This document shows positions 9,357 through 35,075 of a stretch of DNA of 37,502 bases, piece after piece. The notes under the pieces were generated by a model, which worked only from the letters and a program-made list of their open reading frames with translations, did no database searches and was not told the DNA's origin. Every line of letters starts with the position of its first letter. Position 1 is the first letter of the stretch. The position numbers were made by a program, and so were the translations under genes. This DNA comes from Desulfobotulus alkaliphilus (lineage in GTDB: Bacteria > Desulfobacterota > Desulfobacteria > Desulfobacterales > ASO4-4): assembly GCF_007830435.1 (NCBI RefSeq), contig NZ_VLLC01000031.1:1-37502 (forward strand), in the 5' to 3' direction.

Positions 9357-9376
9357 TATTTTGAAAGGCAGGTTTT

Positions 9377-9958
9377 GTGCTGCGTCGTCTCTATAACTGG
9401 GTTTTAAGCTGGGCAGACTCCCCCTGGGGTGTTCTGGCCCTTTTTATTATCGCCTTTGCGGAATCATCCTTTTTCCCCATTCCACCGGATATTCTCCTCA
9501 TTGCCCTTTGCGTGGGCAGGCCCTCAAGGGCTTTTTTTTATGCGGGAGTCTGCACGGCGGGTTCTGTGCTCGGCGGCCTTGCGGGCTATGGCATTGGCTG
9601 GTTTTTCATGGGCAGCATCGGCGCCCCCATTGTGGCCTTTTACGGGGCAGAGGAACAGGTGGCCCGCATCGGAGAGCTTTACAATAATTATGATGCCTGG
9701 GCCGTTGCCATTGCAGGATTTTCACCCATACCCTATAAGGTCTTTACCATAGCGGCAGGCATGTTTGCCATCAGTCTGCCGGTTTTTATTACCGCATCCA
9801 TTCTTTCCAGAGGGGCCCGTTTTTTTCTGGTTGCGGCTCTGATATGGAAGTTTGGTCCCGGCATACGGGCCTTTATTGAACGATATTTTGACAAACTGGC
9901 CATTCTCTTTGTGGTCCTGCTGGTGGGTGGTTTTCTGCTGATCCGTTTCCTTGGCTAG
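9377..9958 (+). CDS. VTT/DedA-family membrane protein (YqaA-like)
   Basis: 193 residues from GTG 9377, largely hydrophobic. The SNARE-associated/VTT core shows in AESSFFPIPPDILLIAL (the E-x4-P-x-PPD re-entrant element), then GSVLGGLAGYGIGWFFMG, and the second re-entrant element AGFSPIPYKVFTIAAGMF. A final transmembrane helix ends the protein. DedA relatives move undecaprenyl phosphate or other lipids across the membrane. This shorter YqaA-like branch is not functionally settled. Because gmd follows after only 32 bases, it could supply carrier lipid to the glycan locus, but that is inference. Confidence 0.85.
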   Translation: MLRRLYNWVLSWADSPWGVLALFIIAFAESSFFPIPPDILLIALCVGRPSRAFFYAGVCTAGSVLGGLAGYGIGWFFMGSIGAPIVAFYGAEEQVARIGELYNNYDAWAVAIAGFSPIPYKVFTIAAGMFAISLPVFITASILSRGARFFLVAALIWKFGPGIRAFIERYFDKLAILFVVLLVGGFLLIRFLG

Positions 9959-9975
9959 GCAGAATCAATGAATAA

Positions 9976-11025
<1,050 letters not shown>

Positions 11026-11087
11026 AAAGTTTCTCCTGGAGACTGCCTTCAGGATCAGGGAAAAATATTCTCTGTATTTTTTCAGAC

Positions 11088-11114
11088 AGGGGCAGCCGCT
11101 AGCTGCCCCTTTTT
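11088..11114 (+). terminator. Intrinsic terminator between gmd and the rmd-like gene
   Basis: AGGGGCAGC (11088-11096) pairs perfectly with GCTGCCCCT (11102-11110) around a 5-base loop, and the T-run continues to 11114. This is a canonical rho-independent terminator. It lies between two genes expected to act as a pair, 20 bases before the start of the second. Confidence 0.8.
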
Positions 11115-11134
11115 CACCTGCGAGGGAGGTACCC

Positions 11135-12028
11135 GTGACAGAAAAAGCCCTTATATTCGGCATGGACAGTTTTACCGGACCTTATCTTAAGGCAGAGCTG
11201 GAATCCCTTGGTATTCAGGTCTATGGAACTGCTTTAAAACAGGGCTTTACGGAAAGTTCCAGGGTTTTTACCTGTGATATCCGGGACAGGGAAACTGTCC
11301 GGGCACTTATGAGTACCATACGCCCCTCCATGGTGGCCGTTCTTTCCGCAGTGACCTTCGTACCTGAGGGGACAGACCGGACGATCTATGATATCAACCT
11401 TTTTGCTCCTTTGAATATTCTGGATATTCTGTCGGAAAATCCTTCACCGTGTGTACGCATCCTCATTCCCGGTACAAGTCATGTGTATGGTAACCGCAGA
11501 GGCGGCCGCCTCGATGAAAAAACGTCCCCGGATCCCATCAGTCATTATGCCCTGAGCAAGTTCGCCATGGAGCAGATGGCCCGGGCGTACGCAGGGAAAG
11601 TGGAAGTTGTGATTCCAAGGCCCTTCAATTATACAGGGCTTGGGCAGCCTGTGCATTTTCTTGTGCCAAAGCTTGTGGATCATTTCAGAAGGAGGGCCCC
11701 TTTCATGGAGCTGGGAAATCTCCATGTATCCAGAGATTTCTCCGATGTGAGGGATGTGGCGCGGGCCTATGCCCTTCTCATGACCATGGAACAGCCGCCT
11801 TCCCTTGTGAATATCGCATCGGGTCAGCCTTTCAGCATCAGAGAGATTCTTGGCATGCTTGAAGAAATGACAGGGCATGCCATGGAGATTCGTGTGAATC
11901 CGGCCTTTGTCAGGGAAAATGAAATTCTCTCCCTCTGCGGGGATAACGGACTTCTGCGTGCCTGCGGCTGGACACCGCAATATACCCTGAAAGATACCCT
12001 GATGTGGATGTTGGGTTTATCTTTTTGA
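11135..12028 (+). CDS. rmd: GDP-6-deoxy-D-lyxo-4-hexulose reductase (Rmd-like)
   Basis: 297 residues from GTG 11135, with GGGAGG 5 bases upstream. An in-frame ATG at 10982 would add 51 residues that run through the terminator and is rejected. NAD(P)-dependent epimerase/dehydratase fold: N-terminal FGMDSFTGPYL (the middle glycine of GxxGxxG is Ser), catalytic Ser in GTSHVYG, Y-x3-K in HYALSKFAME, then RPFNYTGLGQP and RDFSDVRDVARAY, as in Rmd/RmlD/Gmd-partner reductases. Expected product is GDP-D-rhamnose. A GDP-6-deoxytalose or fucose route is the alternative. Confidence 0.82.
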   Translation: MTEKALIFGMDSFTGPYLKAELESLGIQVYGTALKQGFTESSRVFTCDIRDRETVRALMSTIRPSMVAVLSAVTFVPEGTDRTIYDINLFAPLNILDILSENPSPCVRILIPGTSHVYGNRRGGRLDEKTSPDPISHYALSKFAMEQMARAYAGKVEVVIPRPFNYTGLGQPVHFLVPKLVDHFRRRAPFMELGNLHVSRDFSDVRDVARAYALLMTMEQPPSLVNIASGQPFSIREILGMLEEMTGHAMEIRVNPAFVRENEILSLCGDNGLLRACGWTPQYTLKDTLMWMLGLSF

Positions 12029-12107
12029 AATGATATACTCCAAACGGTCAGTCTTGAAACATTTGAAAAATTCAGGCGTACGATGTACTGTATAGGTCTC
12101 TGTAATA

Positions 12108-12159
12108 GTAGAAGCGGCTTCCAGCCGCTTTAAAGAATGCGTCAGGATGGCGCATCTAC
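12108..12159. repeat. REP-like element able to fold as a three-way junction
   Basis: A short outer stem GTAG/CTAC (12108-12111 with 12156-12159) encloses two hairpins: AAGCGGC/GCCGCTT (12112-12118 with 12124-12130) and ATGCGTCA/TGGCGCAT (12137-12144 with 12148-12155, one G-T pair, loop GGA). It lies in the 252-base gap between the convergent rmd-like and GT4 genes, where nothing else is evident. It resembles dispersed intergenic palindromic elements of bacterial genomes and may end transcription from both sides. Confidence 0.6.
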
Positions 12160-12280
12160 AAAACGCAGCAATACGGTGCAGGCTGCTGTTCAGGGTTTTT
12201 TCAACATCGTTTTAAGGCTGGCCCGTGTATCAAAAAAGACCGTTCGGAGTATAGCAAAAGCGGAGGCTGGGGTGCTTGTA

Positions 12281-13471
12281 TTACCGCCTTCGGACAATTC
12301 TGGCAAACTGCTGACCAACAGACTGTTCGCTGAACAGTTCCTGCACCCGTTTTTTTCCTGCTTTCCCAAGTTTTTCAAGATCGTGCTTTCCTGCTTCACA
12401 TTCAAGGAGTGTGCTGGCCAGCATCGATGGATTGCCCGCTTCAAGGGTGATGGCGCAGAGCCTGTCTGGTGCCACCCAGTTCACTCCTGTTCCCAGCTTT
12501 GTATTGATAATGGCTTTTTCCACGGCCATGGCATCAAGCTGGGCAATACCAAAGGCTTCGGACGGGAATTCCGATGGAAAGAGCAGGGCCCTTGCATGCG
12601 CAAGCAGGTGGTATTTTGACCCGTGGGGCAGGGTAGAATCAAAAAAGAGGATATTTTTTCCAAATTCCTTCGCAAGGCGTATAAACCTGTAACGCTCCGG
12701 GCCGTTTCCGAAGACGATGAGATTGATGGGTGTGCCCTGTTCTGCCAGCATGCGGAAGGCTTCTTCCATAACCCTTGTTCCTTTGTAGGCCACAAGGCGT
12801 CCGAAAAAAACATAGTAGCCGTCTCTTATGAAATTTTCCGGCAGAAAGATTTTTCTGTGGTTTTCACTACAGGCGTATGCCCTTTTTTCCCTTTCGACAA
12901 AATCCAGATCCATGGCAAAGGGCAGTACATCCATGGATCTGGGTATGGACGAAAGAACCTCTGAGCTTTTCTGAAGGGCAAGGCTTCCTGTGATAACGGT
13001 ATCTGCCTTGCGTATGACATTCCTGTCAAAGATGTAGGTGATGTGTTTGAGTTTGCGCTGGCGGAAGACATCCGAGTGATAGGTAACGATGAGACGGCCC
13101 CTGATGCGGCTGAGGGGAAGGCTTGCGGCCATACTGGCCCATGGAAACTGAAGATTGATATGAACAATATCCGCCCTGTGGGCCAGGCGGAAAAAATGAA
13201 GAAAAAAATGAAGGCTGGCGGGAGTGGAAAGAATGTTTCCCAATGAGGCACAGCGAATAATCCGGATGCCTTCGATTTCTTCCATAGAGGTCCGCATGCA
13301 GCGTTCATTGGCGCAGCAGAGTACCTGAACCCTGAAGCCCATGGCCTGATACCACCTTGCATATTGCTGTACGGCAGTTTCAATGCCTCCGATGGAGGGT
13401 GGATAAAACTTGGTTACCAGCAGCACATTAAAAAAGGGTGTCCCCTTTTTTTTGATTTTTTTACCATTCAT
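12281..13471 (-). CDS. GT4-family glycosyltransferase
   Basis: 396 residues, a two-domain GT-B enzyme. The N-terminal donor/acceptor loop is LLVTKFYPPSIGGIETAVQQYA (the typical GG after the first strand), followed by DIVHINLQFPWAS. The C-terminal nucleotide-sugar domain has YYVFFGRLVAYKGTRVMEEA (G-R-L---KG), LIVFGNGPE, and PSEFPSEAFGIAQLDAMA, where the family E-x7-E motif reads E-x7-D. It probably adds a sugar to the O-polysaccharide in the cytoplasm. It is the last gene of the minus-strand series, 66 bases after the other GT4 gene. Confidence 0.92.
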   Translation of the reverse strand: MNGKKIKKKGTPFFNVLLVTKFYPPSIGGIETAVQQYARWYQAMGFRVQVLCCANERCMRTSMEEIEGIRIIRCASLGNILSTPASLHFFLHFFRLAHRADIVHINLQFPWASMAASLPLSRIRGRLIVTYHSDVFRQRKLKHITYIFDRNVIRKADTVITGSLALQKSSEVLSSIPRSMDVLPFAMDLDFVEREKRAYACSENHRKIFLPENFIRDGYYVFFGRLVAYKGTRVMEEAFRMLAEQGTPINLIVFGNGPERYRFIRLAKEFGKNILFFDSTLPHGSKYHLLAHARALLFPSEFPSEAFGIAQLDAMAVEKAIINTKLGTGVNWVAPDRLCAITLEAGNPSMLASTLLECEAGKHDLEKLGKAGKKRVQELFSEQSVGQQFARIVRRR

Positions 13472-13537: not shown

Positions 13538-14751
13538 TCAGGTACAGATATGGGTTTTTTCGTAAACGGCCAGGGTGGTCCGGGCACACTGCTTCCATGA
13601 AAAACAAGAGGCGCGTTCTAAGCCCTTTCCATGGAGTTCTGTGCGAATTTTTTCACTGCTGAGAAGCGTTTCAAGTCCTTCGGCGATGGCATATGTATCC
13701 TCAGGTGTTACCAGCAGGGCTGCATTTTCTGCCAGTTCGGCCAGCGCGCCTCTGTTGGAAGTCAGTACGGGTGTTCCGCTGGCCATGGCTTCCAGAACGG
13801 GCAGGCCGAACCCTTCGTAAAGGGAAGGATAGGCAAATACGGCAGCAGAAGCCATGAGATTTTTTATTTCAGGAGCTGACAGATAGCCTGTTACGATAAC
13901 CCGCCAGGGTTTTTTTACCTGCTCTGTTTTTTGAATGAGCCCCCTGTTTTTCCAGCCATGAGCTCCTGCCAGTACCAGGGGCAGCTCCTTTACGGTTTTT
14001 TCCGGCAGACTGAGATAGGCCTCCAGCAGTCTGTCAAGATTTTTTCTGGGTTCAAGGGTAGCAACGGAAAGTATAAACTGTCGCCATGAAAGTCCCAGAT
14101 TTTCAAGGCATTCTTTTGTCTCGCCCTCACTCCGGGGACAAAAGCCCGTATCATACCCCAGCGGTGTTACATGAACAAGACTTTCTTTGGATACAAGCCC
14201 CGATAGCAGCAGTTCCTTTCTTATACATTCACTGATGGTTAAAACCGCTGAGGCTTTTGCAATACACTGGCTGAGCTTTTTATTCAGCCAGCGGACACGG
14301 GCTGCCGGATGGGTTTCCGGATAGCGGATATGGGAAAGATCATGGATGGTAAGGATACTGTTTCCTTTGAAGGGGACGGAAATGAAGCTGGGCTCATGGT
14401 AAATGTCTGCCCGGAGGCGGGCTAAGCACTTTCCTGTTCTAAGGTTCTGCCAGTTTTTATAAGGGGTGTATAATCCCGGAATATCCCGGATGTATCCTTT
14501 TATTTTTTCTTTTTGGCTCAAAATGAAAGGTCTGTTTTCAGAGTGTTCAGGAAATCCCTTTTCAAGGGTTTTCAGATATTCGTAAAAGTCGTCCTGTCCA
14601 AGGACAGCTCCGTTCATAACACCGCTGATGCGTACATCCTGACAGGATATCAGATTTTTTGCCAGATGCAGGGTGTAGTAGCCGATACCCGTGAGGGGAG
14701 CTTTCAGGGCATCGGCTCCCAGTGCGATATGCAGTTTTTTTTTTGTCTCAT
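13538..14751 (-). CDS. GT4-family glycosyltransferase with a frameshift at an A10 tract
   Basis: The uninterrupted ATG-initiated frame starts only at 14617 and lacks the first Rossmann strand. Reading the same frame upstream restores a proper GT4 N-terminus (KKKLHIALGADAL, then APLTGIGYYTLHLA) but finds no ATG, GTG or TTG. The only credible start is ATG 14749-14751. It overlaps the yidC stop as ATGA and has AGGA 7 bases upstream. That start reads ATG-AGA-C-A10 and is out of frame: as written it gives 15 residues and then stops. Reading A11 or A8 would give a protein of about 403-404 residues. The C-terminal domain is intact (LSVATLEPRKNLDRLLEAY, YPSLYEGFGLPVLEAMA with E-x7-E). Confidence 0.8.
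14735..14744 (-). other. Homopolymer A10 tract at codons 3-6 of a glycosyltransferase gene
   Basis: Ten T on the plus strand, hence ten A on the coding strand, seven bases after the start codon. This length is in the range where polymerase slippage during replication or transcription is known in bacteria. It is also a common place for sequencing error. The frame on its 3' side matches the conserved protein only if the tract is one A longer or two shorter. Confidence 0.85.
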
Positions 14752-16304
14752 ACCGTTTTCCTGATCCAGAGGGTGTGTGCCAGATGCAGAAGATTGGCCA
14801 TGGTCCAGTACAGGACCATGCCCGATGGGAAAGAATAGAACAGAAGAAAAAAACCTAAGGCTAGAAGTATGAGTCCTGCCTTGTTCTTCCATGTACTTTT
14901 TTCCGTATCTGCGGGAGCCGGAGAAAATTTTATGCTTAAAAGGTTGGTAAGGGACATGAGCAGGGGAAGAAGGTTGAAACAGGTCCCGAAAAAAGGCAGA
15001 TCCCTGCCAAAGGAAAAGAGCCTGTCCGGCTCGGAAAGGCTTGTTATCCATAGGAAACCAGCACTCCTGAGTTCAAAGGCCTGTCCCAGAAGGTGAAAGA
15101 GGGCGATGAACACAGGAATCTGAATGCCGACGATGACAAGGGGTTTCAGCCCTGCAAGGGGGCTGACACCATAGCGTTCATACACATGGAGAATGCGCTC
15201 GCTCTGCTCCCCCCCCCTGTACTTTTCTTTGATGGCCCGGATACGTGGCTTCATTTCCTTTTGCAGCTCCGCAAAGCGGCGTTGGGATTCCATGGCTTTC
15301 TTTGCCACGGGATGGATGGCAAGCCGGACCAGAAGGGCCAGAATAAGGATGGAAACTCCCCAGTTCATGACAAGTCCATGTATGGCATAGAGCAGGTGCA
15401 TCATGCCCAGAACAAGCAGGCGCATCCACTGCCACAGGGAGGAAAAGAGAATGTCCTGAAGCTGATTCTCCTTCAGCAGATTCCAGGATTTTCCGCCGCT
15501 GAAAATTTCAAGGGTAAAGGTCCGGCTTTCATTTTCTTCCATGGATGAAAAGGGAAGGGAAAGATACAGTTTGCTCTCAAAGGAGGGGGCATCGGGAAAG
15601 AAAAGGGGGCTTTCCGGTGTTTCAATTCTGTATTCCGCAAAAGGGCTTTGGGGTTTTACGATCATGGCAAAGTAGCGGGAATGCAGGCCTGCCCAGACAA
15701 TTTCTTCCGGAAGATCAAGGCTGTGGCGCTCTCCGCTGTTTTCGGCCCTCAGGGTGTGGATACCCCTTTTGTTTTTGAATATGGCTTCGGTGTAGGAATA
15801 AAGACCGTCTGCCATGCCAAGGCCGGAAACGGGGCGGCTGCCTATGCCCGGTCCCATGACCAGAAAAAGATCCGGTTTTCCTATGCTTGCAAGGGATTGC
15901 AGCCGGATCTCAAGCTTCAGGGAGCCGGCATGGTCTCCGGCCCTCCAGAGCTGCTCCAGAACAAAGGGTATGCCATCGCCCCCAAGGCGCAGCAGCACTT
16001 CATTTTCTGAAGAAGCAGGCGCTTTCCATCCTCCTGCTTTATCTGCCCATTCTTTCAGTTTTTTCCCGGCGATGAAACCGCCTGTCACCATCTGATTTCC
16101 CGCAGGAGATACCAGATTTTCCGGTATTTCCGCAGGCACCGTCCACGATACGGCCTGCCCCGAAAGGGCATCCAGAATGAGATGAACAGACGGAGTTTTA
16201 ATGGCTGGAAAGGAAGGTGCGGTCTCTGTTGTGTATCCGGACGATACCGGAAGGATACAGCAGAAAACAAGGAAAAATATCCATTTTCTGAAAGAAAAAA
16301 CCAT
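14748..16304 (-). CDS. YidC/Oxa1-family membrane insertase paralogue
   Basis: 518 residues. An N-terminal hydrophobic anchor (about 7-22) is followed by a periplasmic beta-rich domain of about 270 residues, then the conserved insertase core from about 290: VSILILALLVRLAIHPVAKK with the groove arginine R327, the charged cytoplasmic hairpin QRRFAELQKEMKPRIRAIKEKY, and further helices at about 388-407, 438-458 and 476-503. YidC inserts and folds membrane proteins. The housekeeping copy normally sits with rpmH-rnpA; this one lies inside a glycan operon, so it is probably dedicated to a component of this system. It is 4 bases after the small YLDPGTGS gene. Confidence 0.88.
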   Translation of the reverse strand: MVFSFRKWIFFLVFCCILPVSSGYTTETAPSFPAIKTPSVHLILDALSGQAVSWTVPAEIPENLVSPAGNQMVTGGFIAGKKLKEWADKAGGWKAPASSENEVLLRLGGDGIPFVLEQLWRAGDHAGSLKLEIRLQSLASIGKPDLFLVMGPGIGSRPVSGLGMADGLYSYTEAIFKNKRGIHTLRAENSGERHSLDLPEEIVWAGLHSRYFAMIVKPQSPFAEYRIETPESPLFFPDAPSFESKLYLSLPFSSMEENESRTFTLEIFSGGKSWNLLKENQLQDILFSSLWQWMRLLVLGMMHLLYAIHGLVMNWGVSILILALLVRLAIHPVAKKAMESQRRFAELQKEMKPRIRAIKEKYRGGEQSERILHVYERYGVSPLAGLKPLVIVGIQIPVFIALFHLLGQAFELRSAGFLWITSLSEPDRLFSFGRDLPFFGTCFNLLPLLMSLTNLLSIKFSPAPADTEKSTWKNKAGLILLALGFFLLFYSFPSGMVLYWTMANLLHLAHTLWIRKTV

Positions 16305-16658: not shown

Positions 16659-17846
16659 TCAGGAAATCCCTTTTTCTTTTTTAAGCAGATCCATGAGATG
16701 ATCCGCCCCGGCTTCTGCGCTTTTCCCTGTGTTGAAAATGCTTGTCTTTCGGATATTTCTGATTTTTTCAGCAAAGGTCTCCGAGGCCTCCATGAGCTGC
16801 CTGAGAACCGGGCCGATTTGCTGAACCTTTTCCGGGTGAAGAATCTGGCCGATTTCCTTTCGGATATGGTCTTCAAGGCCTGAAAAACCATAGTTTTCCC
16901 AGTCCGGATTGTTTATTTTCTGCGGCGTATCCATAAAAAGAACAGGACGTTCAAGGCCGAAGGCAAATTCTGTGGCTGCACCGGACCAGTCGCTTACCAT
17001 AACGGCGGCATCCCTTAAGGAGCTGTTGTCATTCAGGTTGTCTTCAATGAAAAAGGATTTTTTTTCAATCTCCCCTGAAAATTCTTTTTTTAAGGCAGCA
17101 ATTTCTTGCCCATGGTGGCGCAGGGTCATGGGATGGAGCCGTAAACGGCACTCCCAGTTTTCCCCGATAATATGACGGATCATGGCGCGGATAAGCAGCG
17201 GTTCTTCGGCAAAGGAACCCCTTCCCCATGAGGGAGCCAGCAGAATCAGGGGTTTTTCCCTGTGCTGCCGGTTTTCTTTCATCTTTGCATAGAGGCCCAT
17301 GACCGTATCCAGCTTGACGCTGCCATGCTCCAGCAACTCCCGTTTTTCCGCAAGCCCCAGTTCTTCTTCCCTGCGCAGCTCCCGGATATGATGGGGGCCG
17401 ACGCAGAGGATGGTGTCATAGAAGGCAAAGGCCTTGGGCCGGTAAACGGTGTGGGTGCTGTTGATGGAATGGAAACAGTAAACATAGTGAACAGGATGCA
17501 CCCTGCTGCGTTTCAGGTGATAGACTTCAAGGTCCGGGAGGGTCATGAGCAGCAGCCTGCATTTCAGGAACTGGAAAAAAAGGGTGCGCACCGTGCCTGA
17601 GCCGATATGGAAGGCAGAAAACTTTTCATGGACAAAGTCCATGCCGGGATCGTTTTTTTCCGATGAGAGGTAGCTTATGCTTTCCTCCGGGTATTTTTCC
17701 AGGAATTTTTCAGCCACAGGACCCATGTGGGGCCAGTCCTGGGGGCCTTCGGAATAAATTACCAGCCTTCTCCGGGATTCAGGCAGTTTTCTGAATGCCT
17801 GCCACTGCTGCCATTCTTTTCTGAAATTATTGATTTTTTTAAGCAT
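16659..17846 (-). CDS. TagF/CDP-glycerol glycerophosphotransferase-like enzyme
   Basis: 395 residues in the GT-B-like fold of TagB/TagF teichoic acid enzymes. Visible family elements: LLAPSWGRGSF (about 203-212), RLHPM (236-240), and SDWSGAATEFAFGLERPVLF (about 285-304), which contain the residues that bind the CDP-polyol phosphates in TagF. No membrane helix is obvious; basic amphipathic stretches near the N-terminus could give membrane contact. It follows the phosphonate genes with a 3-base gap. The natural inference is that it uses CMP-phosphonate (for example CMP-hydroxyethylphosphonate) instead of CDP-glycerol and transfers the phosphonate to a glycan hydroxyl. Confidence 0.82.
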   Translation of the reverse strand: MLKKINNFRKEWQQWQAFRKLPESRRRLVIYSEGPQDWPHMGPVAEKFLEKYPEESISYLSSEKNDPGMDFVHEKFSAFHIGSGTVRTLFFQFLKCRLLLMTLPDLEVYHLKRSRVHPVHYVYCFHSINSTHTVYRPKAFAFYDTILCVGPHHIRELRREEELGLAEKRELLEHGSVKLDTVMGLYAKMKENRQHREKPLILLAPSWGRGSFAEEPLLIRAMIRHIIGENWECRLRLHPMTLRHHGQEIAALKKEFSGEIEKKSFFIEDNLNDNSSLRDAAVMVSDWSGAATEFAFGLERPVLFMDTPQKINNPDWENYGFSGLEDHIRKEIGQILHPEKVQQIGPVLRQLMEASETFAEKIRNIRKTSIFNTGKSAEAGADHLMDLLKKEKGIS

Positions 17847-17849
17847 GAT

Positions 17850-19004
17850 TCACATCCATCGCAGGGCTGCTTTTTTCAGCAGTGTTTCATGTTCGCTGCC
17901 CTCAGGCTGACGAAGGTTGTTATCCGAACGCCCCGGAGTATGCATCTCATGGGCAAGGTCAAGGATCTGGGAAATGTCAGAAACCGTTTCACGGAAATGA
18001 TCCCTGAACCCAAGCCCTTCCATAAAGAGGAAGATTTTTTCAGAAAAAACGTCAGGCTCTTCCCCCAGCCTCCGGGCAAGGTCAGCCATGCGGCCATCAT
18101 CGGCCCCAAGGTTGAACGCCCAAAGTTCCGGCAGGGTAAAGCTGCATGCAATGCCATGGGGTGTTCCAAGGTGGGCGGTGAGGGGATAGGAAATGGCATG
18201 GGCCATGGCCGTCCGTGTACTGGCGATGCAAAGGCCGGAAAGCAGGCTGGCTTCCAGCATTTTTGTGCGCAGGAGGGTATTGCCGGGATCGTTTTTTAAA
18301 GGGGGAAGGGATTCCAGCACAAGGCTGATGCCTTCGGCTGCCAGGGCCAGACTTACGGTGGAGCAGTGGACGTTCCATACGGATTCAAGGCACTGGGAAA
18401 GGGCATCCAGCCCTGTGGACAGGGTGGTTTTCCATGGCAGGGAGCAGCTGAGGCCGGGAAAGAGCAGGGCCTTTTCGGGGTGCAGATTGTCCGAGGCGAG
18501 GGAATATTTTTTTTTCCTGTCCATATCCCATAGGGTGGCAAAGGGTGTGACCTCGCTGCCTGTTCCTGCGGTTGTAGGGCAGGCTGTCAGGGGGATGGGG
18601 GAGAGCTCCGGCAGCTTTGTTCCCGTGGAGAGCATTTCAAGGGTTTCGCCGGGGGATGGGGCAGTCTCAGCCAGCAGCCATGAGAGGATCTTTCCAAGAT
18701 CCATGGCACTGCCGCCCCCAAGGGCAAGGATATGTCCCGGTCTGAAATCCCTTATACCTTCACATATTTCCTTCAGATCCGTGAATGATGGATTGCTTGC
18801 AGCCGTATCCAGCAGCATATATGGAATTTTATTTTCTGAAAAAAGATTTTCCACGCTCCGGGTAATGCCCCTTTGCGTGCTTCCGGGAGTTGTGATGAAA
18901 AGGGTAGGGCAGGGTTTAAGATGCCCCTTCAGATCTTCTGGGAATTCAAGGCGGCTGTATATGCGGACAGGGGCATGAAATTCCCACTTTGAATCATGAT
19001 TCAT
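17850..19004 (-). CDS. Iron-containing alcohol dehydrogenase, probable phosphonoacetaldehyde reductase
   Basis: 384 residues, group III ADH. The NAD(P) motif is LALGGGSAMDLGK (about 94-105) and the fold markers are CPTTAGTGSEVTPFA. By alignment with the family, metal ligands fall at D200, position 204, H269 and H283; position 204 is Gln here where His is usual. Directly downstream of the decarboxylase, it most likely reduces phosphonoacetaldehyde to 2-hydroxyethylphosphonate (PhpC/FomC-like step). No aminotransferase for the 2-aminoethylphosphonate branch is present. AAGGA precedes ATG 19004. Confidence 0.85.
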   Translation of the reverse strand: MNHDSKWEFHAPVRIYSRLEFPEDLKGHLKPCPTLFITTPGSTQRGITRSVENLFSENKIPYMLLDTAASNPSFTDLKEICEGIRDFRPGHILALGGGSAMDLGKILSWLLAETAPSPGETLEMLSTGTKLPELSPIPLTACPTTAGTGSEVTPFATLWDMDRKKKYSLASDNLHPEKALLFPGLSCSLPWKTTLSTGLDALSQCLESVWNVHCSTVSLALAAEGISLVLESLPPLKNDPGNTLLRTKMLEASLLSGLCIASTRTAMAHAISYPLTAHLGTPHGIACSFTLPELWAFNLGADDGRMADLARRLGEEPDVFSEKIFLFMEGLGFRDHFRETVSDISQILDLAHEMHTPGRSDNNLRQPEGSEHETLLKKAALRWM

Positions 19005-19013
19005 AATATGTCC

Positions 19014-20153
19014 TTAATACCGGGGCTGAGGGATGTCACAGCATGCAGCCATGAAGGCCTGCCTGTTCTGCTCCGGTGTGGATGTGGGGCGTCCCAGATT
19101 ATCCCTTGAGCCGGGAAGGATTTTAATTTCAAGCATCTGCGGCCCTTTGCTCCGGCATATTTCCTCCCATGCCCCTTTAAGGCTTTCGGCGTCCGAAGCC
19201 AGCAGCCAGTTTCTGTACCCGCAGGCCCTTGCCATGGCCTTAAAATCTATTTTTCCGGCAACGGTGGGCTGGCCTCCCACGGACTCGTGGGCTGCGTTGT
19301 TCAGGAGAATATGGACAAAGTTATCCGGCTTCAGGCTGCCGATGATGGCCATGGAACCCATGTGCATGAGCAGGGAGCCGTCCCCGTCCAGACAGAGAAC
19401 CCGTTTTTCGGGTCTGCCTGCTGCAACTCCCATGGCAATGGAGGCGGTGTGACCCATGGAGCCTACGGTGAGAAAATCCCGCTGTTTTTCTCCCCGGAGC
19501 TGCCGGACTTCAAAGAGTTCTCTGGAGGTTTTACCCGTGGTGGAGACAATGAGGTCACTGGCATCCGCAAGACCCAGCAGTATGGAGAGGGCCTCTTCCC
19601 GCATCAGGCGGGTATCAGGGGCAGGTACAGCCTTTGCCTTGTACGGCGCAAAGGTATTTTTTTTTACAAGCACGGCAGCAGGGCTTTTCTGTTTTTCCAT
19701 ATGGGCGAAGAGACCATCCAGAAGGGGCGCAGGGTCTGTGTCCGGTCCGAGTATGGCATGGGGGATTTCCAGTATATCCAGCTGCTGGCGGGTAATTCTG
19801 CCCTGTTTGATGTGCTGTGGCTCATCCTTGACCCCCGGCTCCCCCCGCCAGCCGATGACAAGCAGCATGGGAATGCCATAAACTTCCGGGTCCGTCAGGG
19901 ACGTGAGGGGGTTGACGCAGTTCCCGAGTCCTGAGTTCTGCATGTAAACGGCCCCGGTTTTTCCCGTTGCCATGTGATACCCCGCAGCCATGGCAATGGC
20001 ATTGCCCTCATTGGCCGTGATGATGTGCTCTTTAGGGCTGCAGCGGTCATCCACAAAGGCGCAGAAATGTTTCAGCAGAGAGTCCGGGACACCGGCAAAA
20101 AAGTCCGTTCCCTTTTGCCGGATAAGTTCATAAAAAAATGAAGGTTCAATCAT
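19014..20153 (-). CDS. ppd: Phosphonopyruvate decarboxylase
   Basis: 379 residues, full length for Ppd/AepY. A thiamine-diphosphate enzyme that makes phosphonoacetaldehyde from phosphonopyruvate and pulls the unfavourable PEP mutase reaction forward. The Glu that activates thiamine is in ITANEGNAIAMAAGY (E49). Family-specific stretches are YMQNSGLGNCVNPLTSL and GWRGEPGVKDEPQH. The ThDP/metal motif is CLDGDGSLLMHMGSM through LLNNAAHESVGGQP (GDG...NN). It starts 3 bases from the end of the PEP mutase gene, as in most phosphonate pathways. Confidence 0.95.
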   Translation of the reverse strand: MIEPSFFYELIRQKGTDFFAGVPDSLLKHFCAFVDDRCSPKEHIITANEGNAIAMAAGYHMATGKTGAVYMQNSGLGNCVNPLTSLTDPEVYGIPMLLVIGWRGEPGVKDEPQHIKQGRITRQQLDILEIPHAILGPDTDPAPLLDGLFAHMEKQKSPAAVLVKKNTFAPYKAKAVPAPDTRLMREEALSILLGLADASDLIVSTTGKTSRELFEVRQLRGEKQRDFLTVGSMGHTASIAMGVAAGRPEKRVLCLDGDGSLLMHMGSMAIIGSLKPDNFVHILLNNAAHESVGGQPTVAGKIDFKAMARACGYRNWLLASDAESLKGAWEEICRSKGPQMLEIKILPGSRDNLGRPTSTPEQNRQAFMAACCDIPQPRY

Positions 20154-20155
20154 GC

Positions 20156-21463
20156 TTATTTGCCCCCCGGTATCAGTTCAAGGATTTCTTTTATGGGCAG
20201 CATCATTTCTGATGCTTCATGGGATCTCTGGTGTTCAAGGATCATTTTTGCGGTTTTTACCATGGCAGGGTAGGCACTGCGCAAAAGCTGGTTCCCGTAG
20301 ATGACCACATTGATGCCATGCTCCATGAACGCATCTTCCCTTACCTGATTATAGGTGGAAGGGACAACCACAAGGGGTTTTCTCTCCGGCAGCTTATTGT
20401 ATTCTTTGCAGAAGGCAAAAACTTCATCAGGGGTTTTTTCTTTACTATGTATCATGATGCCGTCTGCTCCGGCTTCCAGATAGGCCCTGGCTCTGGTCAG
20501 GGCATCATCCATGCCCTTTTTGAGGATCAGGCTTTCAATGCGGGCAATGATCATGAAATCCCGGGTTGCCCTGGCAGCCCTCCCTACCCGGATCTTATGG
20601 CAGAAATTTTCTATGGAATCCTGGGTCTGCTCCACATCGGTTCCGAAGAGGGAATTTTTTTTAAGACCGGTCTTGTCTTCTATGATGGCTGCGGAGATGC
20701 CCAGCCTTTCAAGGGTTTTTACGGTAAAGACAAAGTGCTCCGGCTGTCCGCCCGTATCCGCATCATAAATGATGGGCTTGGTGGTGACCTCCAGAACCTC
20801 ATTAAGGGTGCTGATCCTTGAACTGACATCCACGGCCTCGATATCGGGTTTGCCCTTGGCTGTGGAATCCGTAAGGCTGCTCCCCCACATGCCGTCAAAT
20901 TCCCTTACCCCTTTTTCCGTGTTCACGGAAACATTTTCCACAATGAGACCTGTCAGGCCGTTGTGAACCTCAATGAAGCGGAGAAGGGGTTTTACCTGCA
21001 GCATCCTTGAAAGGGATTTCAGGCGGATTTCCGGTGTGGTGCCGATCTCCTTGGCAGCTCCCTGTAGCTGTGTGGATGAAATGCCTTTGGTGTAGGGAAC
21101 TTCCACCAGCTTACCGCCCCATCCGGCAAGGGCCTCAATGACCCTCTGGCGGGTTTTTTTCTGGACCCCTTCCACCCAGTCATCACCATGTACCACGTAG
21201 TCCGGCTTCAGGGCTTCAAGGTTGGGTACATAATCGAGGGTACTCTGGGGAATCACCCGGCTGACCCCTTTGATGTTTTCAATCACGATCCTGCGCTGTT
21301 CAAAACTCATGAAGGGAATGCGCTTGTAGCTGGCAATGGCCTCATCCGTCAGAAGTCCCACAACAAGCTCCCCCAGCTCACTGGCATGCCTGATGATGTT
21401 CATGTGACCGGGGTGAACAAGGTCGGCACTCATACCGACATAAACGATTTTTTTTTCTGACAT
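20156..21463 (-). CDS. pepM: Cytidylyltransferase-phosphoenolpyruvate mutase fusion
   Basis: 435 residues with two domains. Residues 1-135 form a glycerol-3-phosphate cytidylyltransferase-like domain: HPGH at 17-20 and the ISST element at 128-131, both catalytic signatures that look intact. Residues about 155-430 are PEP mutase, the C-P bond-forming enzyme: YDADTGG (233-239, metal binding) and the diagnostic EDK-X5-NS motif ([10 protein letters not shown], 262-271), which separates true mutases from isocitrate-lyase relatives. One polypeptide therefore opens the pathway and may activate its end product with CTP. GAAGGAG precedes ATG 21463. Confidence 0.95.
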
Positions 21464-27500: not shown

Positions 27501-29591
27501 CACTTCATGACCGATTGCAAAACGCATGTTTATTTTTGATAATGCTTCGGTATCCGTTGTGTGTATCCATTTTTGCTGTTCAGCAAGCCGGGTATCTTGT
27601 TGGGGAAATGTTGCATCAAACATGTCATAGAATACGCGGATAGTGTGAACAAGGTACATTACATGGTTGTGGTGACGGACTGCAAATGTGGGGGCTTTTG
27701 TGGAAATGACCATATCATAGGAGCTGAGATCCAGCTCTTGTGTTTTTATATAACCCTTTTGAATGCTTTCAAAGCTGGATTCATCAAACTCAAGGCTAAG
27801 GATTTCAGCATCGCAGCCCAGATCCGTCAGTGCCTTTACCAGCCCGGAATAGAGTCTTTCAGCGCCTCCCTGCGTTCCGTCAGGTGATACCGGAGTCAGA
27901 ATGGCTATTCTTTTTTGGTTCTTGTAATTTTCATTGGATTTTCTTTGATTTTTTTTAAAAAGGTGATTGTTTGATTCGGGATCTGATTCCTTGCTCTCAG
28001 TGCCATGAAAGGTAAGCAGCCCTTTGATAAGGGCAAACTGCCGCAAATGAGCAAGCAGGGCGGGAAATCTCCGGAGGCGGGCAGTCAGCCAGTACCGGAG
28101 GCCGGGTCTGCCCAGGGCAAAGCGCATCAGTCCGGCAAGTATCGGTCGCAGACAGGCTTTTATGATGCGGAAGGGAAGAGCCAGCAGCCAGCCTGCAAGC
28201 AGACGCAGCCAACGGAGTGGTGCCGTAAGACGCCAGGAAGAACTGCTTAAAAGATCACTGACACGCTGTTCTGCAGAAGTGGCGCGCAGGTGCCAGTGAT
28301 GGGCATTCTCCACAGACTCACTGAGCTGGCGGGTGATGCCATCCGTTTGTGTACGCAGCGTTTCAATTTCAGCCTTGTGGATATCGTTGTGGTGGCGCAG
28401 CTCCTCCAGCTGAATTTTCAGTTCACCGGCTTCCTGCCTGCTCCCTTCCAGCTGTTGCTTCAGTTCCTGAGCATTTTGTGTCAGCGCAATCTGTTGCCCA
28501 CGGAGTTTTTCAGCCTGTCTGGCCAGCTCTTCTTTGTCTTTTAGGGTAAGTTCATAGCGGACTTCCATTTCTGCGGCACGGATACTGATCTGCCGAAGCT
28601 CTGTTTCTGACTGCCGGGCACGGTTTTCTTCCTCCTCAGCACGCCGGGTCCACTGCAGTCTCTGCTGGTCCAGCTGCCCGGCAAGGGTTTCGGTTTTTGC
28701 TGCCCGCACCTCCGCTTTGTGAAGTTCTTCAAGGAGTTTTCTTGTATCACCCTCTTGCTCAAGGATTCGGGAGAGAGAATGGCGCAGTTCGTATTCCTGT
28801 CGGGAGAGTTCTTCCATGCGGTGTGTTATCCCTTTTAATTCCTTTTCTAAAGCCTGATCATAGCGTTCTGCAATCTGATTCAGTGAAATACCGTAGTCCG
28901 TTTCAAACAGGGAATCAAAGGATTCAGTGATTTCACGGGTAGCTGGTTTTTGTGCCACGATGGCATAGTCGGGGCTTACGCCGCTCAATACATGGAGCAG
29001 TCCGGGGCGTTCCATGGTGTGGAGCGTCGGGTTTTCCTGTAGTCGTAGTATTTTATGGCGAAAAAAACCGGTCAGCTCGGTGACAAAGGAGAGCAGGGTG
29101 TAGGGTACCGGCCGGATATGCGTAGGGTCAAGGAAAAAATAGTGGGTACCCACCACCAGATTTTCAGCATTGGGGGTTTCAAGGATCAGGAGACCACCGG
29201 GTCTCAGCACCCGGAGAGCCTCTTCAACCAGAGTCTGCGCACGGCTGAAATCTATGTGCTCAATGATATGGAAACCGGTTACTACGCTCAGGCTGCTATC
29301 GGGCTGAGTCTGCAGGGCTTCGATGGCATCCCATTGAACTGTGTCGAGATTGAGCTGGTGGCAGGCTTCGAGCATGCCGCTGTCCAGATCTACACCACAG
29401 GCCTGAACCCCAAGGCGTCTCATGAGTACCAGCCACTCACCCCGTCCGCAGCCAAGATCAAGGGCTGTGCAGGGGGTATGCAGCAGCTTAAGCTTTTCGA
29501 TAAAGGGGGTGTATGCTTCAAGGCGTCCGAGGATCAGCTCCTGCGAACCTCTGTAGCGGTTTTCAAAGGCGCGGTAAAAATTAGAACTCAT
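24513..29591 (-). CDS. Fusion of methyltransferase, coiled coil and three GT4 domains (WbdD-like)
   Basis: 1692 residues from ATG 29591, which overlaps the wzt stop as ATGA (a GTG at 29600 would add 3). Order, in residue numbers counted from that GTG: SAM methyltransferase about 20-220 (LDLGCGRGEWL, HIIEH); long coiled coil about 245-450; a basic hydrophobic segment about 452-530 beginning SSSSWRLTAPLRW; a hydrophilic linker about 531-560; GT4-1 about 563-900 (GRLHAWKRVDLAI, EDYGYVTLEA); GT4-2 about 913-1315 (DSHNIEKR, GSGTNIKMFDFMAAG); GT4-3 about 1330-1690 (GFLRKHKGVRTL, EGGSASASDCFAVG). It recalls WbdD/WbdA of E. coli O9a, where methylation ends the chain and the coiled coil measures its length, but in one protein. 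Confidence 0.9.
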   Translation of the reverse strand: MSSNFYRAFENRYRGSQELILGRLEAYTPFIEKLKLLHTPCTALDLGCGRGEWLVLMRRLGVQACGVDLDSGMLEACHQLNLDTVQWDAIEALQTQPDSSLSVVTGFHIIEHIDFSRAQTLVEEALRVLRPGGLLILETPNAENLVVGTHYFFLDPTHIRPVPYTLLSFVTELTGFFRHKILRLQENPTLHTMERPGLLHVLSGVSPDYAIVAQKPATREITESFDSLFETDYGISLNQIAERYDQALEKELKGITHRMEELSRQEYELRHSLSRILEQEGDTRKLLEELHKAEVRAAKTETLAGQLDQQRLQWTRRAEEEENRARQSETELRQISIRAAEMEVRYELTLKDKEELARQAEKLRGQQIALTQNAQELKQQLEGSRQEAGELKIQLEELRHHNDIHKAEIETLRTQTDGITRQLSESVENAHHWHLRATSAEQRVSDLLSSSSWRLTAPLRWLRLLAGWLLALPFRIIKACLRPILAGLMRFALGRPGLRYWLTARLRRFPALLAHLRQFALIKGLLTFHGTESKESDPESNNHLFKKNQRKSNENYKNQKRIAILTPVSPDGTQGGAERLYSGLVKALTDLGCDAEILSLEFDESSFESIQKGYIKTQELDLSSYDMVISTKAPTFAVRHHNHVMYLVHTIRVFYDMFDATFPQQDTRLAEQQKWIHTTDTEALSKINMRFAIGHEVAERLRYWNGVDAEILHPPIDLKGLYNAEYGDYFFMPGRLHAWKRVDLAIKAVKGSCLPMRLVISGTGEAEQGLKDLAGGDPRIEFLGYVNDETLKKLYASALAVPFIPIREDYGYVTLEAFASEKPVITCTDSGEPNQFVTDGHTGFVCDPDEKSLRTAFEKLWNNRELAKTLGKAGYAKTAKIQWPEVASRLLEAGGFSTRFGQIKKDNKKLKVAILDMQPIIPAVGGGRLRLLGLYHALGNHLEARYIGTYDWQGEKYRRHHITPTLEEINIPLSNKHHAAAAKACKKAGNRIVIDMLFPKQAHLSPEYTEEVISTVRWADIVVFSHPWVAPLVEDKILQDKVVVYDSHNIEKRLRAQILDKNDPFQLEIIEEVARTEQLAGDRADLILACSDEDVHGFMDEYNWKKTRIKVFPNGVFTDNIMPPSPDQKNKARKQLNFKTKQSLTAFFIGSNYAPNLEAANTILDIIAPECPDVHFVIAGSVCNGIKSSPPENVSLVGYVSDEQRTDWLHTSDFAINPMISGSGTNIKMFDFMAAGLPVITTPTGARGITTKDVAGILLAEIEDMSSLIKGMHGQSKKLDELGSQNRLLVEELYSWEKISPRLGREFRKLWISKSRTLTLDKKKKTYKIAHLSTTGLKCGIGEYAKKIAETLYDHGCSNLILTCVSALEKKNPLENTPDHIISWYLDNKKWTGTFFKDDIFDQLTSWGSEAIIIQYHPAFFSEKMLLSLTGKCVRHRIKPLIIVHNYTSTSADAFSTLNQLGIVLFSHRKSEIIEAEKDGVLLDFLPLGIDHQEPLKTKNIYDRDMSKTPPVIVTNGFLRKHKGVRTLISAMKKVLSEFPGTKLKIQCALYPSEDSREELLACKKMVHTLGLEHAVNFDTRFLEKKEVLEKLSNCDLAVLPYLSSDEGGSASASDCFAVGLPVIVSTAKIFDEIRDAAFTVEPDADRIAEAILKILNSPDKYHALSCASVGYASENSWKNVTASCLMAMEQS

Positions 29592-30805
29592 CGTCTGCAC
29601 TCCACATGTGGCGGCATCCAGGCGACACCCACAAAGGTTGGATGTGACGTATTGACAATATTGAACATCAGGGCCATATCAAGCCAGTGATAATTGCGTT
29701 CAAGGTGGGTGTCTGCAATGTGCAGGGCGGCAGACACCGAGTAGGAACCCAGCCCAAGCCGTGCAGGAAAACGGAAACGGTACTCAAGTTTTTCCCCAGC
29801 CCGGAGATCGTACTGGGTCTGGTTAAGATAGAAGGTGTTGGTTCCGTAAATCTGCTGGCCGAGGCGGTCTTTGATCACATAGCCCAGCACCAGTTCAGGT
29901 ACAGGCTGATGAATTTCTGCTTTGATGCACAGGCAGATATCTTCGCCTACGGTAACATATTCTATGGGTTCATTGTGGATATTACGAAGGCTGATTTCAG
30001 TAATTTTAGCCTCTCCCGTTCCAGAGCTGGTCTGGGTGCTGCCGTTATCAAGGCGGCGGACCTCTACCGTGCTGTTTTCTTTTTCGGCAATAATGGCATT
30101 GTACAGATCAATAACTTCTTCCGGCGGACCATCTTTGATAACCGTGCCGTTTTCCAGAAGAAGGGTGCGGGTACACAAGGCCAGTATGGATGAAGGGTCA
30201 TGGGTCACAATCAGCAGCGTGGTGCCCTGTTTCTGAAATTTTCGGATGCGTTCAAAGCTTTTATGCTGGAAATAGGTGTCTCCCACGGAAAGGGCTTCGT
30301 CCACAATCAGAATTTCGGGACGGAAGGCCGTTGCTACGGCAAAGGCCACACGCACCTGCATACCACTGGAGTAGGTGCGCACCGGCTGATCGAAGTATTC
30401 GCCGATTTCTGCAAAGGCCTCAATGTCCGGCATGGCTTCCATAATCTGTTTGTGTCCATAGCCCATGAGTCCGGTGGAATGGAGGACGTTTTGCCGCCCG
30501 GTGAGTTCGGGGTTGAAGCCCATGCCCAGCTCCAGAATAGCTGCCGTACGGCCCTTGACATGAACTGTGCCTTCCGTTGGCTGCAGGGTACCGGCGATCA
30601 TTTTCAAGAGGGTGGATTTGCCCGCACCGTTTTGTCCCATGATGCCTATGGCTTCGCCGGGGCGGATATCAAAGCTGATATGGCGAAGTACCCAGCATTC
30701 TTCCGAAGGCCTTGCAGGTAAGCCAAACCAGCCTGCAAAGCGACGCCATTCCGAGCGGTAGGTCCGGTAGGCCTTTCCGAGATTTTGAACGCTCAGCAGT
30801 GTCAT
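29588..30805 (-). CDS. wzt: ABC exporter ATPase with glycan-recognition C-terminal domain
   Basis: 405 residues. The ATPase domain fills the first about 240: Walker A GQNGAGKST (57-65), signature YSSGMQ (145-150), Walker B ILIVDE (165-170), then the switch histidine in VTHD. The C-terminal about 150 residues are a beta-rich domain like that of O9a-type Wzt, which binds the modified non-reducing end of the finished polysaccharide. This fits the methyltransferase in the next gene. Its ATG overlaps the wzm stop (ATGA, 30802-30805) and its stop overlaps the next start, so all three are probably translationally coupled. Confidence 0.95.
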   Translation of the reverse strand: MTLLSVQNLGKAYRTYRSEWRRFAGWFGLPARPSEECWVLRHISFDIRPGEAIGIMGQNGAGKSTLLKMIAGTLQPTEGTVHVKGRTAAILELGMGFNPELTGRQNVLHSTGLMGYGHKQIMEAMPDIEAFAEIGEYFDQPVRTYSSGMQVRVAFAVATAFRPEILIVDEALSVGDTYFQHKSFERIRKFQKQGTTLLIVTHDPSSILALCTRTLLLENGTVIKDGPPEEVIDLYNAIIAEKENSTVEVRRLDNGSTQTSSGTGEAKITEISLRNIHNEPIEYVTVGEDICLCIKAEIHQPVPELVLGYVIKDRLGQQIYGTNTFYLNQTQYDLRAGEKLEYRFRFPARLGLGSYSVSAALHIADTHLERNYHWLDMALMFNIVNTSHPTFVGVAWMPPHVECRR

Positions 30806-31596
30806 AGCGCATCCACCATTTCAGGGGCTGCACGGCGGAACATGAAGAGGCTGAGAAGAAGAAGCGTGACCGCAACCCCCATGGTGATGACAATGGACTG
30901 AATGGGTGGGGGGGTGCCATAAACCAGAACATTGTGATAGGCACTGACGATCGGCAGCATGGGATTGTATGCCAGAATGCCCTGCAGGGTATCCGGTACA
31001 ATTTCTATTGGATAAACAATGGGAGTAAACCAGAAGAGTGCCTGAAGAATGATGGGGGTTATCTGGCCGACATCCCGTACAAACACATTAAAAGTGCCGA
31101 GAATCAACCCTGCTCCCAGTGCCAGTGAAGCATTGACCATTGTGAGCGGGATGAGCCACAGCACTTCAGGTCCGGGTACGTGGCCCAGCAGTGCAAAAAC
31201 GACAAGCACTGCTGCCAGCAGAAGTGTGTAGTTCAGCAGGCATGAGCCTGCAACGATTACCGGCATGGTGATTCGGGGAAAACGTATTTTTTTCATAAGG
31301 TTGCCATTATCTATAAAAAGGGTGAGGCAACGGCCGATGATTTCGGTAAACAGGCTCCAGGCGGTGATACCTGCCGTGAGATAGAGCGCATATGCGTATG
31401 GGTTATCAATTCCCGGAAGTTTGGCAGCCAGTACATTGGACAGGATAATGGCATAAATGCCTACCTGGGCAAGTGGGTTGATGACCATCCACAGCCCCCC
31501 CAGCTTGCTGCGGGCAAAACGGGCAACGAACTCATTGCGTATGGATGAAAAAATAAATCCCCGGTAGGCCCAGATGCTGTAAAAAAAAGTAAGCAT
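30802..31596 (-). CDS. wzm: ABC-2 type polysaccharide exporter permease
   Basis: 264 residues from ATG 31596, the normal size for Wzm. Family features are SSIRNEFVARFARSKLGGLWMVINPLAQVGIYAIILS at the N-terminal side, then six hydrophobic segments and the late LFWFTPIVYPIEIVP. With Wzt it would carry an undecaprenyl-linked glycan across the inner membrane. A longer frame from TTG 31683 exists, but its extra 29 residues are not family-like. The ribosome binding site for 31596 is weak (AGGA 11 bases away). A 9-codon ORF at 31629-31658 with a good AAAGGA site lies in the leader and may couple translation. Confidence 0.9.
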   Translation of the reverse strand: MLTFFYSIWAYRGFIFSSIRNEFVARFARSKLGGLWMVINPLAQVGIYAIILSNVLAAKLPGIDNPYAYALYLTAGITAWSLFTEIIGRCLTLFIDNGNLMKKIRFPRITMPVIVAGSCLLNYTLLLAAVLVVFALLGHVPGPEVLWLIPLTMVNASLALGAGLILGTFNVFVRDVGQITPIILQALFWFTPIVYPIEIVPDTLQGILAYNPMLPIVSAYHNVLVYGTPPPIQSIVITMGVAVTLLLLSLFMFRRAAPEMVDAL

Positions 31597-31738
31597 AATG
31601 AAGTCGGTCCTGAATAAAGCCCGCAGTTTTAGCTGCCTAAGGGTTGGTCTGCTTCCATTATAATGATTTCCTTTGTGAAACAAGGTTTTTTCGGGTAGCA
31701 GGGATAGGGTATGTCCTGTATGTCACAGGCAGCAGATG

Positions 31739-33264: not shown

Positions 33265-33279
33265 GGGAAAACTTAGCAG

Positions 33280-35048: not shown

Positions 35049-35075
35049 GCTACGAAGAGTGTTGAGAGGATTTCC

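Follow-up and report, generated by a model that had tools for sequence, protein, structure and literature searches.

Decoration of the bacterial surface by way of CMP-phosphonates is already a published theme. In the phosphonyl tailoring (Pnt) clusters, a fusion of phosphoenolpyruvate (PEP) mutase (PepM) with a nucleotidyltransferase is found with phosphonopyruvate decarboxylase (Ppd), and activation by cytidine triphosphate (CTP) serves surface decoration (Rice et al., 2019; PMC6697681). The main text of that study characterizes PntC enzymes of PF12804 specific for 2-aminoethylphosphonate (AEP), mentions LicD-like phosphotransferases in gene neighborhoods and does not contain the term TagF; it reports that the Fom1 domain makes CMP-2-hydroxyethylphosphonate, and its abstract terms the steps after CMP-phosphonate formation enigmatic. 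The DNA analyzed here, hereafter the window, is one entire contig (C32) of 37,502 nt from Desulfobotulus alkaliphilus, whose genome comprises 4.0 Mb in 95 contigs. Like the Pnt clusters, it carries a fused PepM and cytidylyltransferase and a Ppd. Judged from sequence, four of its genes likely encode the synthesis of a carbon-phosphorus compound, 2-hydroxyethylphosphonate (HEP), in activated form as a building block. Unlike the characterized Pnt enzymes, the locus has HEP-type, TagF-like, YidC-like and sulfatase-like parts.

An earlier note on this DNA had described, at 16659-21463, a complete pathway for a CMP-activated HEP decoration encoded by four genes with gaps of 2-9 bases. All four open reading frames (ORFs) were confirmed there on the minus strand: a cytidylyltransferase-PepM fusion (CyT-PepM), Ppd, an iron-dependent alcohol dehydrogenase (Fe-ADH) and a TagF-like transferase, separated by 2, 9 and 3 bases. 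Inspection of the sequence also recovered the motifs it had listed, namely the PEP mutase motif EDK-X5-NS in CyT-PepM and HPGH and ISST in the cytidylyltransferase (CyT) domain. CyT-PepM scores 404 bits against the PEP mutase model TIGR02320 (cut-off 319.55), its CyT domain 57.3 bits against CTP_transf_like PF01467 (cut-off 21), and Ppd 462.9 bits against TIGR03297 (cut-off 312.5). The Fe-ADH fails the cut-off of the phosphonate Fe-ADH model TIGR03405 (276.8 against 423.7 bits), which is all the same its top model, the next one reaching 150.7 bits. TIGR03405 is also the top model, and below cut-off, for the Fe-ADHs of loci L011 (301 bits), L037 (210.7 bits) and L069 (125.3 bits, only slightly over the next model). 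The nearest solved structure to the CyT domain (residues 3-140) is 5x3d, which we take to be the Fom1 cytidylyltransferase domain (E 5.7e-60 over 138 aa, 206.9 bits); weaker matches are the ethanolamine-phosphate cytidylyltransferase 3elb (66.2 bits) and the glycerol 3-phosphate enzyme 1coz (41.9 bits). These homologies bear out the proposed CTP activation by the fused domain and make the formation of CMP-HEP by the cassette a well supported prediction. The word complete was too strong, as the acceptor and the final transfer are not covered.

The cassette likely makes HEP, not AEP, the choice also favored by the earlier note, because no AEP transaminase above the cut-off of TIGR03301 (360.8 bits) was found in the window's genome (best match 42 bits; assembly 98% complete) and because Fe-ADH and transaminase were not seen side by side at any of the PepM loci. 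As a positive control, the model recovered a transaminase of 409.2 bits in G015, the sole one over cut-off among G000, G015, G313 and G455 (42, 26 and 50 bits in G000, G313 and G455, respectively), and at the G015 locus the transaminase stands in place of Fe-ADH. PepM lies near the transferase in 11 loci, four of which have Fe-ADH (the window, L011, L037 and L069), five AEP transaminase (L007, L072, L076, L077 and L089), two neither (L050 and L060) and none both.

The TagF-like protein of the window, taken alone, matches no Pfam or NCBIfam model at E 0.001 and no Pfam family at E up to 0.1. The TagF family PF04464 is matched by 14 of 16 members of the transferase family, not by the window protein. 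A profile of 16 relatives matches Cps3D (8qoy), TagF (3l7j/3l7i) and TarL (8va1) with E values of 8e-7 to 1.3e-5, and TagF, TarL and Cps3D are its only matches at E up to 1e-3. TagF is also the top Foldseek match of the AlphaFold model (pLDDT 93.3; E 2.9e-14, TM-score 0.57). In VIA-align, TagF 3l7l obtained Z 21.5 (root-mean-square deviation 4.9, 336 aligned), level with UDP-N-acetylglucosamine 2-epimerases (Z up to 22.2), so that function cannot be read from the fold alone; it is the sequence profile that points to TagF. Profile, aligned TagF motifs and Foldseek match uphold the TagF-like identity first read from the sequence.

Relatives of the TagF-like protein occur in the window's own genome and G015 among 58 related genomes, in three of 395 genomes sampled from the phylum (its own included) and in three of 41 in the order of G313. 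Of the 149 genomes of family f99, presumably a Desulfovibrio-like family, 17 have a match at E up to 1e-3, and in 10 the match reaches E 1e-30 or better. Another 45 loci lie in named genome contigs, mostly metagenome assemblies, of Desulfovibrio, Synergistales, Selenomonadales, Acidaminococcaceae, Lachnospiraceae, Gastranaerophilales, an alphaproteobacterium, Nitrotoga, Endomicrobia/Elusimicrobiota, Fibrimonadaceae and Mucispirillum. A single-sequence scan of these contigs with the window transferase itself, which is divergent, found no relative.

The TagF-like subfamily travels with YidC-like and sulfatase/LtaS-type proteins in many bacterial groups. Fifty-eight loci were counted after removal of L048 (identical to L011) and L055 (identical to L038) as duplicates and of L092 for its incomplete transferase; L083, a near-copy of L082, was kept in the count and left out of the tree described below. 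A YidC domain is present in 48 of the 58, within 200 bp of the transferase in 37, and a sulfatase domain was detected in 34, fused to YidC in one protein in 30. The annotation profiles were built from 17 loci, 16 of them among the 58, and the loci independent of profile building (L049-L091) contain YidC in 35 of 42 cases. The clearest locus for donor genes beside the TagF-like/YidC-sulfatase core is L069, where Ppd, a nucleoside triphosphate (NTP) transferase, CyT-PepM, Fe-ADH, the TagF-like gene and a YidC-sulfatase gene form a run of six genes that share a strand and either overlap or are separated by no more than 9 bp. Family f99 served as a control: a YidC match is present in 142 of its genomes, and 12 have several. 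Nine rows with weak transferase matches (E 7.9e-17 to 4.9e-4) were left aside, and the limit for a strong match was set, by our own choice, at E 1e-30. All 10 genomes with the transferase at this limit have an extra YidC, as do 2 of the 139 others, G526 and G595 (Fisher p 6e-14, with genomes treated as independent, which they are not). None of the 52 genomes with other PF04464 genes only has one. The extra YidC domain of G526 (G526:C163:1643-2212) lies in a 1074-aa frame, and no transferase match was found in that genome (assembly 74% complete). The exporter proteins Wzm and Wzt were also considered as general partners of the transferase, an idea left unsupported by single-sequence phmmer searches at E 1e-8: among the annotated loci, a Wzm permease was matched in the window only (divergent permeases may escape such a search), while a Wzt-type ATPase was matched strongly in L070 (E 1.2e-58) and weakly in L050, L040 and L064, leaving the window alone with matches to both.

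Donor genes beside the core are exchanged. PepM/Ppd genes adjoin it in 14 loci as counted by Ppd, 11 of them with PepM, and NTP transferase/choline-ethanolamine-kinase genes in 14 loci with a kinase match (in L051, L062 and L065 the choline-kinase label is a weak one; PF01633 is matched in L010 and L071). Stand-alone CyT genes form a third type, and the two tested score highest, though below cut-off, against the NCBIfam model for glycerol-3-phosphate cytidylyltransferase. On a quick transferase tree with 57 rows, the donor type changes at least six times among 36 labeled rows; the labels were set by hand, with L057, L061 and L067 called phosphonate on Ppd alone, and the window clade has long branches. 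Because the CTP-activating genes beside the core are swapped, a CTP-activated class of donor for the TagF-like step is supported, and in other loci this core appears to handle different head groups, among them AEP, phosphocholine or phosphoethanolamine, and glycerol-phosphate-like groups. In L010 (7435-12790) and L071 (6481-11876; Desulfovibrio piger ATCC 29098), an NTP transferase/choline-ethanolamine kinase fusion, the TagF-like gene and a YidC-sulfatase fusion make up a compact trio, which predicts a phosphocholine- or phosphoethanolamine-type decoration. The Endomicrobia loci L073, L074 and L087 have an aminotransferase-like gene and a stand-alone CyT beside the transferase, with no PepM match. 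In the Synergistaceae phosphonate locus L050, a second CyT-domain protein of 470 aa (9278-10690) lies between transferase and YidC.

The extent first given, while right for the four-gene cassette, proved too narrow: a YidC-like and a sulfatase-like gene, missed earlier, flank the cassette on the same strand and belong to the system. The YidC-like protein scores 123 bits against PF02096 (cut-off 35) and is encoded by the genome's second YidC-family gene, besides the housekeeping copy. One of its arginines aligns with the hydrophilic-groove arginine of E. coli YidC. At this Arg/Lys position, 49 of 54 aligned module YidC domains (L048, L055, L083 and L092 included) have a neutral residue, one has His and one a gap; a basic residue is kept as Arg in the window and L070 and as Lys in L007, and the housekeeping copy has Lys. 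The sulfatase-like protein scores 46.8 bits against PF00884 and has four transmembrane helices by simple hydropathy. Its Thr232 and Asp195/Asp446/His447 fall in conserved active-site columns, and among 34 aligned sulfatase-type domains (all ORFs over 100 bits, duplicates kept) Thr is found in 32 and the Asp/His pair likewise in 32. These columns presumably correspond to the active-site residues of the LtaS/EptA membrane phosphotransferases. Foldseek matches of the L010 YidC-sulfatase model (pLDDT 79.4) include EptA and PbgA, with TM-scores to the query of 0.22-0.26. Divergent sulfatase-type domains occur in further YidC proteins, those of L051 and L077 (by eye, with weak hidden Markov model scores) and of L067, L072 and L080 (weak Pfam matches). 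Two YidC fusion genes stand at a single transferase locus in L043 (10150-15622) and L072 (5505-11791), and in the AEP-type locus L007 a YejM/PbgA-type protein (DUF3413 plus sulfatase; 10331-12178) lies between the transferase and the YidC-like gene.

We consider it fairly probable that the cluster makes CMP-HEP and that HEP reaches a polymer at the cell surface by way of the conserved membrane module. The PepM domain would convert PEP to phosphonopyruvate and Ppd would convert this to phosphonoacetaldehyde, both by strong homology; Fe-ADH would yield HEP, as suggested by moderate homology and the lack of a transaminase, and the fused CyT is predicted, again by strong homology, to form CMP-HEP from CTP and HEP. 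The TagF-like GT-B enzyme may then move HEP from CMP-HEP to a membrane acceptor on the cytoplasmic side. The YidC-like protein would present the product or carry it across the membrane, and the sulfatase/LtaS-type domain, with its Thr nucleophile and metal site, would pass the head group to the surface polymer, in the window probably the polysaccharide of the adjoining Wzm/Wzt and glycosyltransferase genes. Conserved linkage and fusion are the grounds for these last two roles. Crossing by the YidC domain and transfer by the sulfatase domain are further suggested because the Thr, Asp and His residues are kept, the groove residue is mostly lost and E. coli YidC scrambles lipids in vitro, according to a preprint (PMC10491306). 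Extended to the whole family, the idea becomes tentative, and we lean somewhat against it: the YidC-sulfatase pair, often one polypeptide, might be a new trans-envelope head-group transferase in which a YidC fold flips a head-group lipid and is coupled to an LtaS-type transferase. The TagF-like enzyme would load it with whichever phosphonate or phosphate head group has been activated by CTP, and the donor cassettes (HEP, AEP, choline- or ethanolamine-phosphate, glycerol-phosphate-like) would have been exchanged across several phyla.

Several observations weigh against transfer by the membrane module. The membrane acceptor and the lipid intermediate are parts that we infer. The window TagF-like protein is divergent, with 35% identity to that of L007 and 23-29% to the other 14, and its YidC and sulfatase genes lie 354 and 86 bp away from the four-gene cassette. 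The best PDB sequence matches of the window sulfatase are S1 sulfatases, which are weak, and not LtaS or EptA; the sulfatase of G015 is of YejM type and only weakly related to it. Because the window members are unfused and divergent and the YidC retains its Arg, the family as a whole makes a stronger case for a head-group machine than the window does. Inclusion of the seven f99 genomes that have only weak transferase matches (E 7.9e-17 to 1e-4), none of which has an extra YidC, brings the proportion with one to 10 of 17. L037 has the TagF-like gene and the whole HEP cassette, with no YidC or sulfatase within flanks of 9.4 and 8.1 kb and a single YidC match in its genome. YidC was likewise not matched in L056, L085 and L088, where 8 kb upstream and 5.9-8 kb downstream were covered, nor in L036, L045, L074, L076, L079 and L084, which are at contig ends or on short contigs; the L036 genome has a YidC-sulfatase frame on a different contig. 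A 727-aa ORF beside the L037 transferase, weighed as a possible hidden partner, was rejected, as it has no Pfam match and looks like a spurious frame.

Direct transfer, as put forward in the earlier note, would have the TagF-like protein attach HEP to the polysaccharide while still in the cytoplasm, and the decorated chain would then leave through Wzm/Wzt, perhaps with HEP as a terminal mark that might be read by Wzt_C; the YidC-like and sulfatase-like proteins would act elsewhere. Wzm, Wzt with its Wzt_C domain and a large glycosyltransferase/methyltransferase gene do lie upstream on the same strand, the window TagF-like protein has no transmembrane helix by simple hydropathy, L070 also carries a Wzt-like ATPase, and L037 does without YidC and sulfatase. 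The confinement of the Wzm match to the window in the single-sequence search, set beside the presence of a YidC-like partner in 48 of 58 loci, argues against this possibility, under which a YidC-sulfatase fusion beside the transferase would be hard to explain. We regard it as somewhat unlikely; the earlier interpretation as a whole is partly supported. The sulfatase-like protein could instead act hydrolytically, trimming or recycling the decoration, and the YidC-like protein could be an ordinary insertase whose substrate is the sulfatase-like protein or some other membrane protein encoded in the locus. The sequence and fold matches include sulfatases and phosphonate monoester hydrolases, and the window YidC-like protein keeps its groove arginine. 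The nucleophile is Thr in the phosphotransferases EptA and LtaS and Cys or Ser in arylsulfatases, and the Thr in 32 of 34 rows, together with the loss of the basic groove residue in most module YidC domains, makes these roles rather unlikely.

The remaining alternatives concern the product. A phosphonolipid, with the TagF-like protein making an HEP lipid that the YidC-like and sulfatase-like proteins flip or remodel while the glycan stays undecorated, would suit D. piger L071, where the genes for kinase fusion, transferase and YidC-sulfatase are packed closely together and flanked on either side by ORFs of the opposite strand; the window genes are embedded in a polysaccharide locus, and we hold this outcome to be decidedly unlikely. 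A teichoic-acid-like poly(HEP), its units joined through hydroxyl and phosphonate much as TagF joins glycerol phosphate, is very improbable. The subfamily is akin to the polymerases TagF, TarL and Cps3D, a free hydroxyl is available in HEP and glycerol-phosphate-type cytidylyltransferases adjoin some of the relatives, but relatives beside choline-kinase or AEP modules could hardly polymerize in this way, so a single transfer is more likely the conserved reaction. It is scarcely credible that the CyT activates glycerol 3-phosphate for an ordinary glycerophosphate decoration while the PepM part serves another end, for its weak match to TIGR01518 (52.9 bits, cut-off 165.4) is set against its fusion to PepM and its by far closest structure, 5x3d.

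The genes in question form part of a series of 11 co-directional genes on the minus strand, running from 31683 to 12281 with Wzm first and two glycosyltransferases last, in the order of the table. The 1695-aa methyltransferase/glycosyltransferase protein is a candidate for assembling the acceptor glycan. An outer-membrane efflux protein, an ABC exporter and an HlyD-type adaptor, encoded beside the cluster on the opposite strand (31969-36386, +), form a type I secretion-like trio.

Features of the D. alkaliphilus window, in order along the minus strand
Feature	Coordinates	Strand	Basis
Wzm-type ABC permease	30802..31683	-	PF01061
Wzt-type ABC ATPase with Wzt_C carbohydrate-binding domain	29588..30805	-	PF14524, PF00005
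Methyltransferase and several glycosyltransferase domains, 1695 aa	24513..29600	-	Pfam
Membrane-anchored sulfatase/LtaS-type protein, 876 aa	21550..24180	-	PF00884, conserved columns, hydropathy
Cytidylyltransferase-PEP mutase fusion (CyT-PepM, Fom1-like), 435 aa	20156..21463	-	TIGR02320, N-terminal PF01467, nearest PDB 5x3d
Phosphonopyruvate decarboxylase (Ppd), 379 aa	19014..20153	-	TIGR03297
Fe-ADH, predicted phosphonoacetaldehyde reductase yielding HEP, 384 aa	17850..19004	-	Best NCBIfam model TIGR03405, below cut-off
TagF-like GT-B transferase, 395 aa	16659..17846	-	Family profile against TagF/TarL, AlphaFold model, Foldseek, VIA-align
YidC-like paralogue, 518 aa, YidC core at residues about 292-517	14748..16304	-	PF02096
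Glycosyltransferase	13538..14617	-	PF00534
Glycosyltransferase	12281..13471	-	PF00534/PF13579

A second CyT-PepM/Ppd/Fe-ADH cassette lies on contig C11 of the same genome (L004, 2699-6387), its proteins 77, 62 and 39% identical to those of the window. It is surrounded by genes for NeuB, a CMP-sugar-type cytidylyltransferase and a Maf-related protein, and would thus appear to belong to a sialic- or pseudaminic-type, possibly flagellar, glycan. No TagF-like gene is labeled in the annotation of that locus, where the next gene encodes a 283-aa protein. The idea, formed by eye, that this protein is a LicD was rejected, since Pfam gave only a weak CoA_binding match and the PDB nothing convincing.

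No description of a TagF-like, YidC-like and sulfatase-like module, or of a YidC-sulfatase fusion, was found in searches of the open-licence literature; the module is new in this sense and points to an undescribed machine that places such groups on the cell surface. It offers a concrete, conserved set of candidates for the steps that follow CMP-phosphonate formation in surface decoration. If the proposal is true, a YidC paralogue would serve lipid or glycan export instead of protein insertion, and phosphonate or phosphocholine-like surface groups would be predicted in varied bacteria, many known only from metagenome assemblies. HEP on glycans would have a precedent in the HEP-bearing phosphonoglycans of Glycomyces and Stackebrandtia, reportedly described by Yu in 2014. 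The window fusion shares its domain order with Fom1, the CMP-HEP synthase of fosfomycin formation, and its CyT domain aligns with 5x3d over 138 residues; Fom1 serves an antibiotic pathway, whereas the window fusion adjoins surface-glycan genes. With TagF, TarL and Cps3D the TagF-like protein has in common the GT-B fold, aligned AP-T/S-W, R-x-H and D-x-S motifs and the family His at TagF position 584, although identity in the fold match is only 13-15% and the window protein lacks a Pfam match; unlike other PF04464 genes of family f99, its subfamily is linked to YidC-like genes. The sulfatase-type protein resembles LtaS, EptA, MdoB and YejM/PbgA in combining a transmembrane anchor with an alkaline-phosphatase-superfamily domain and differs from them in being fused to, or adjoining, a YidC domain. 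The module YidC, in turn, is set apart from housekeeping YidC/Oxa1 as an additional paralogue with a mostly neutral residue at the groove Arg/Lys position.

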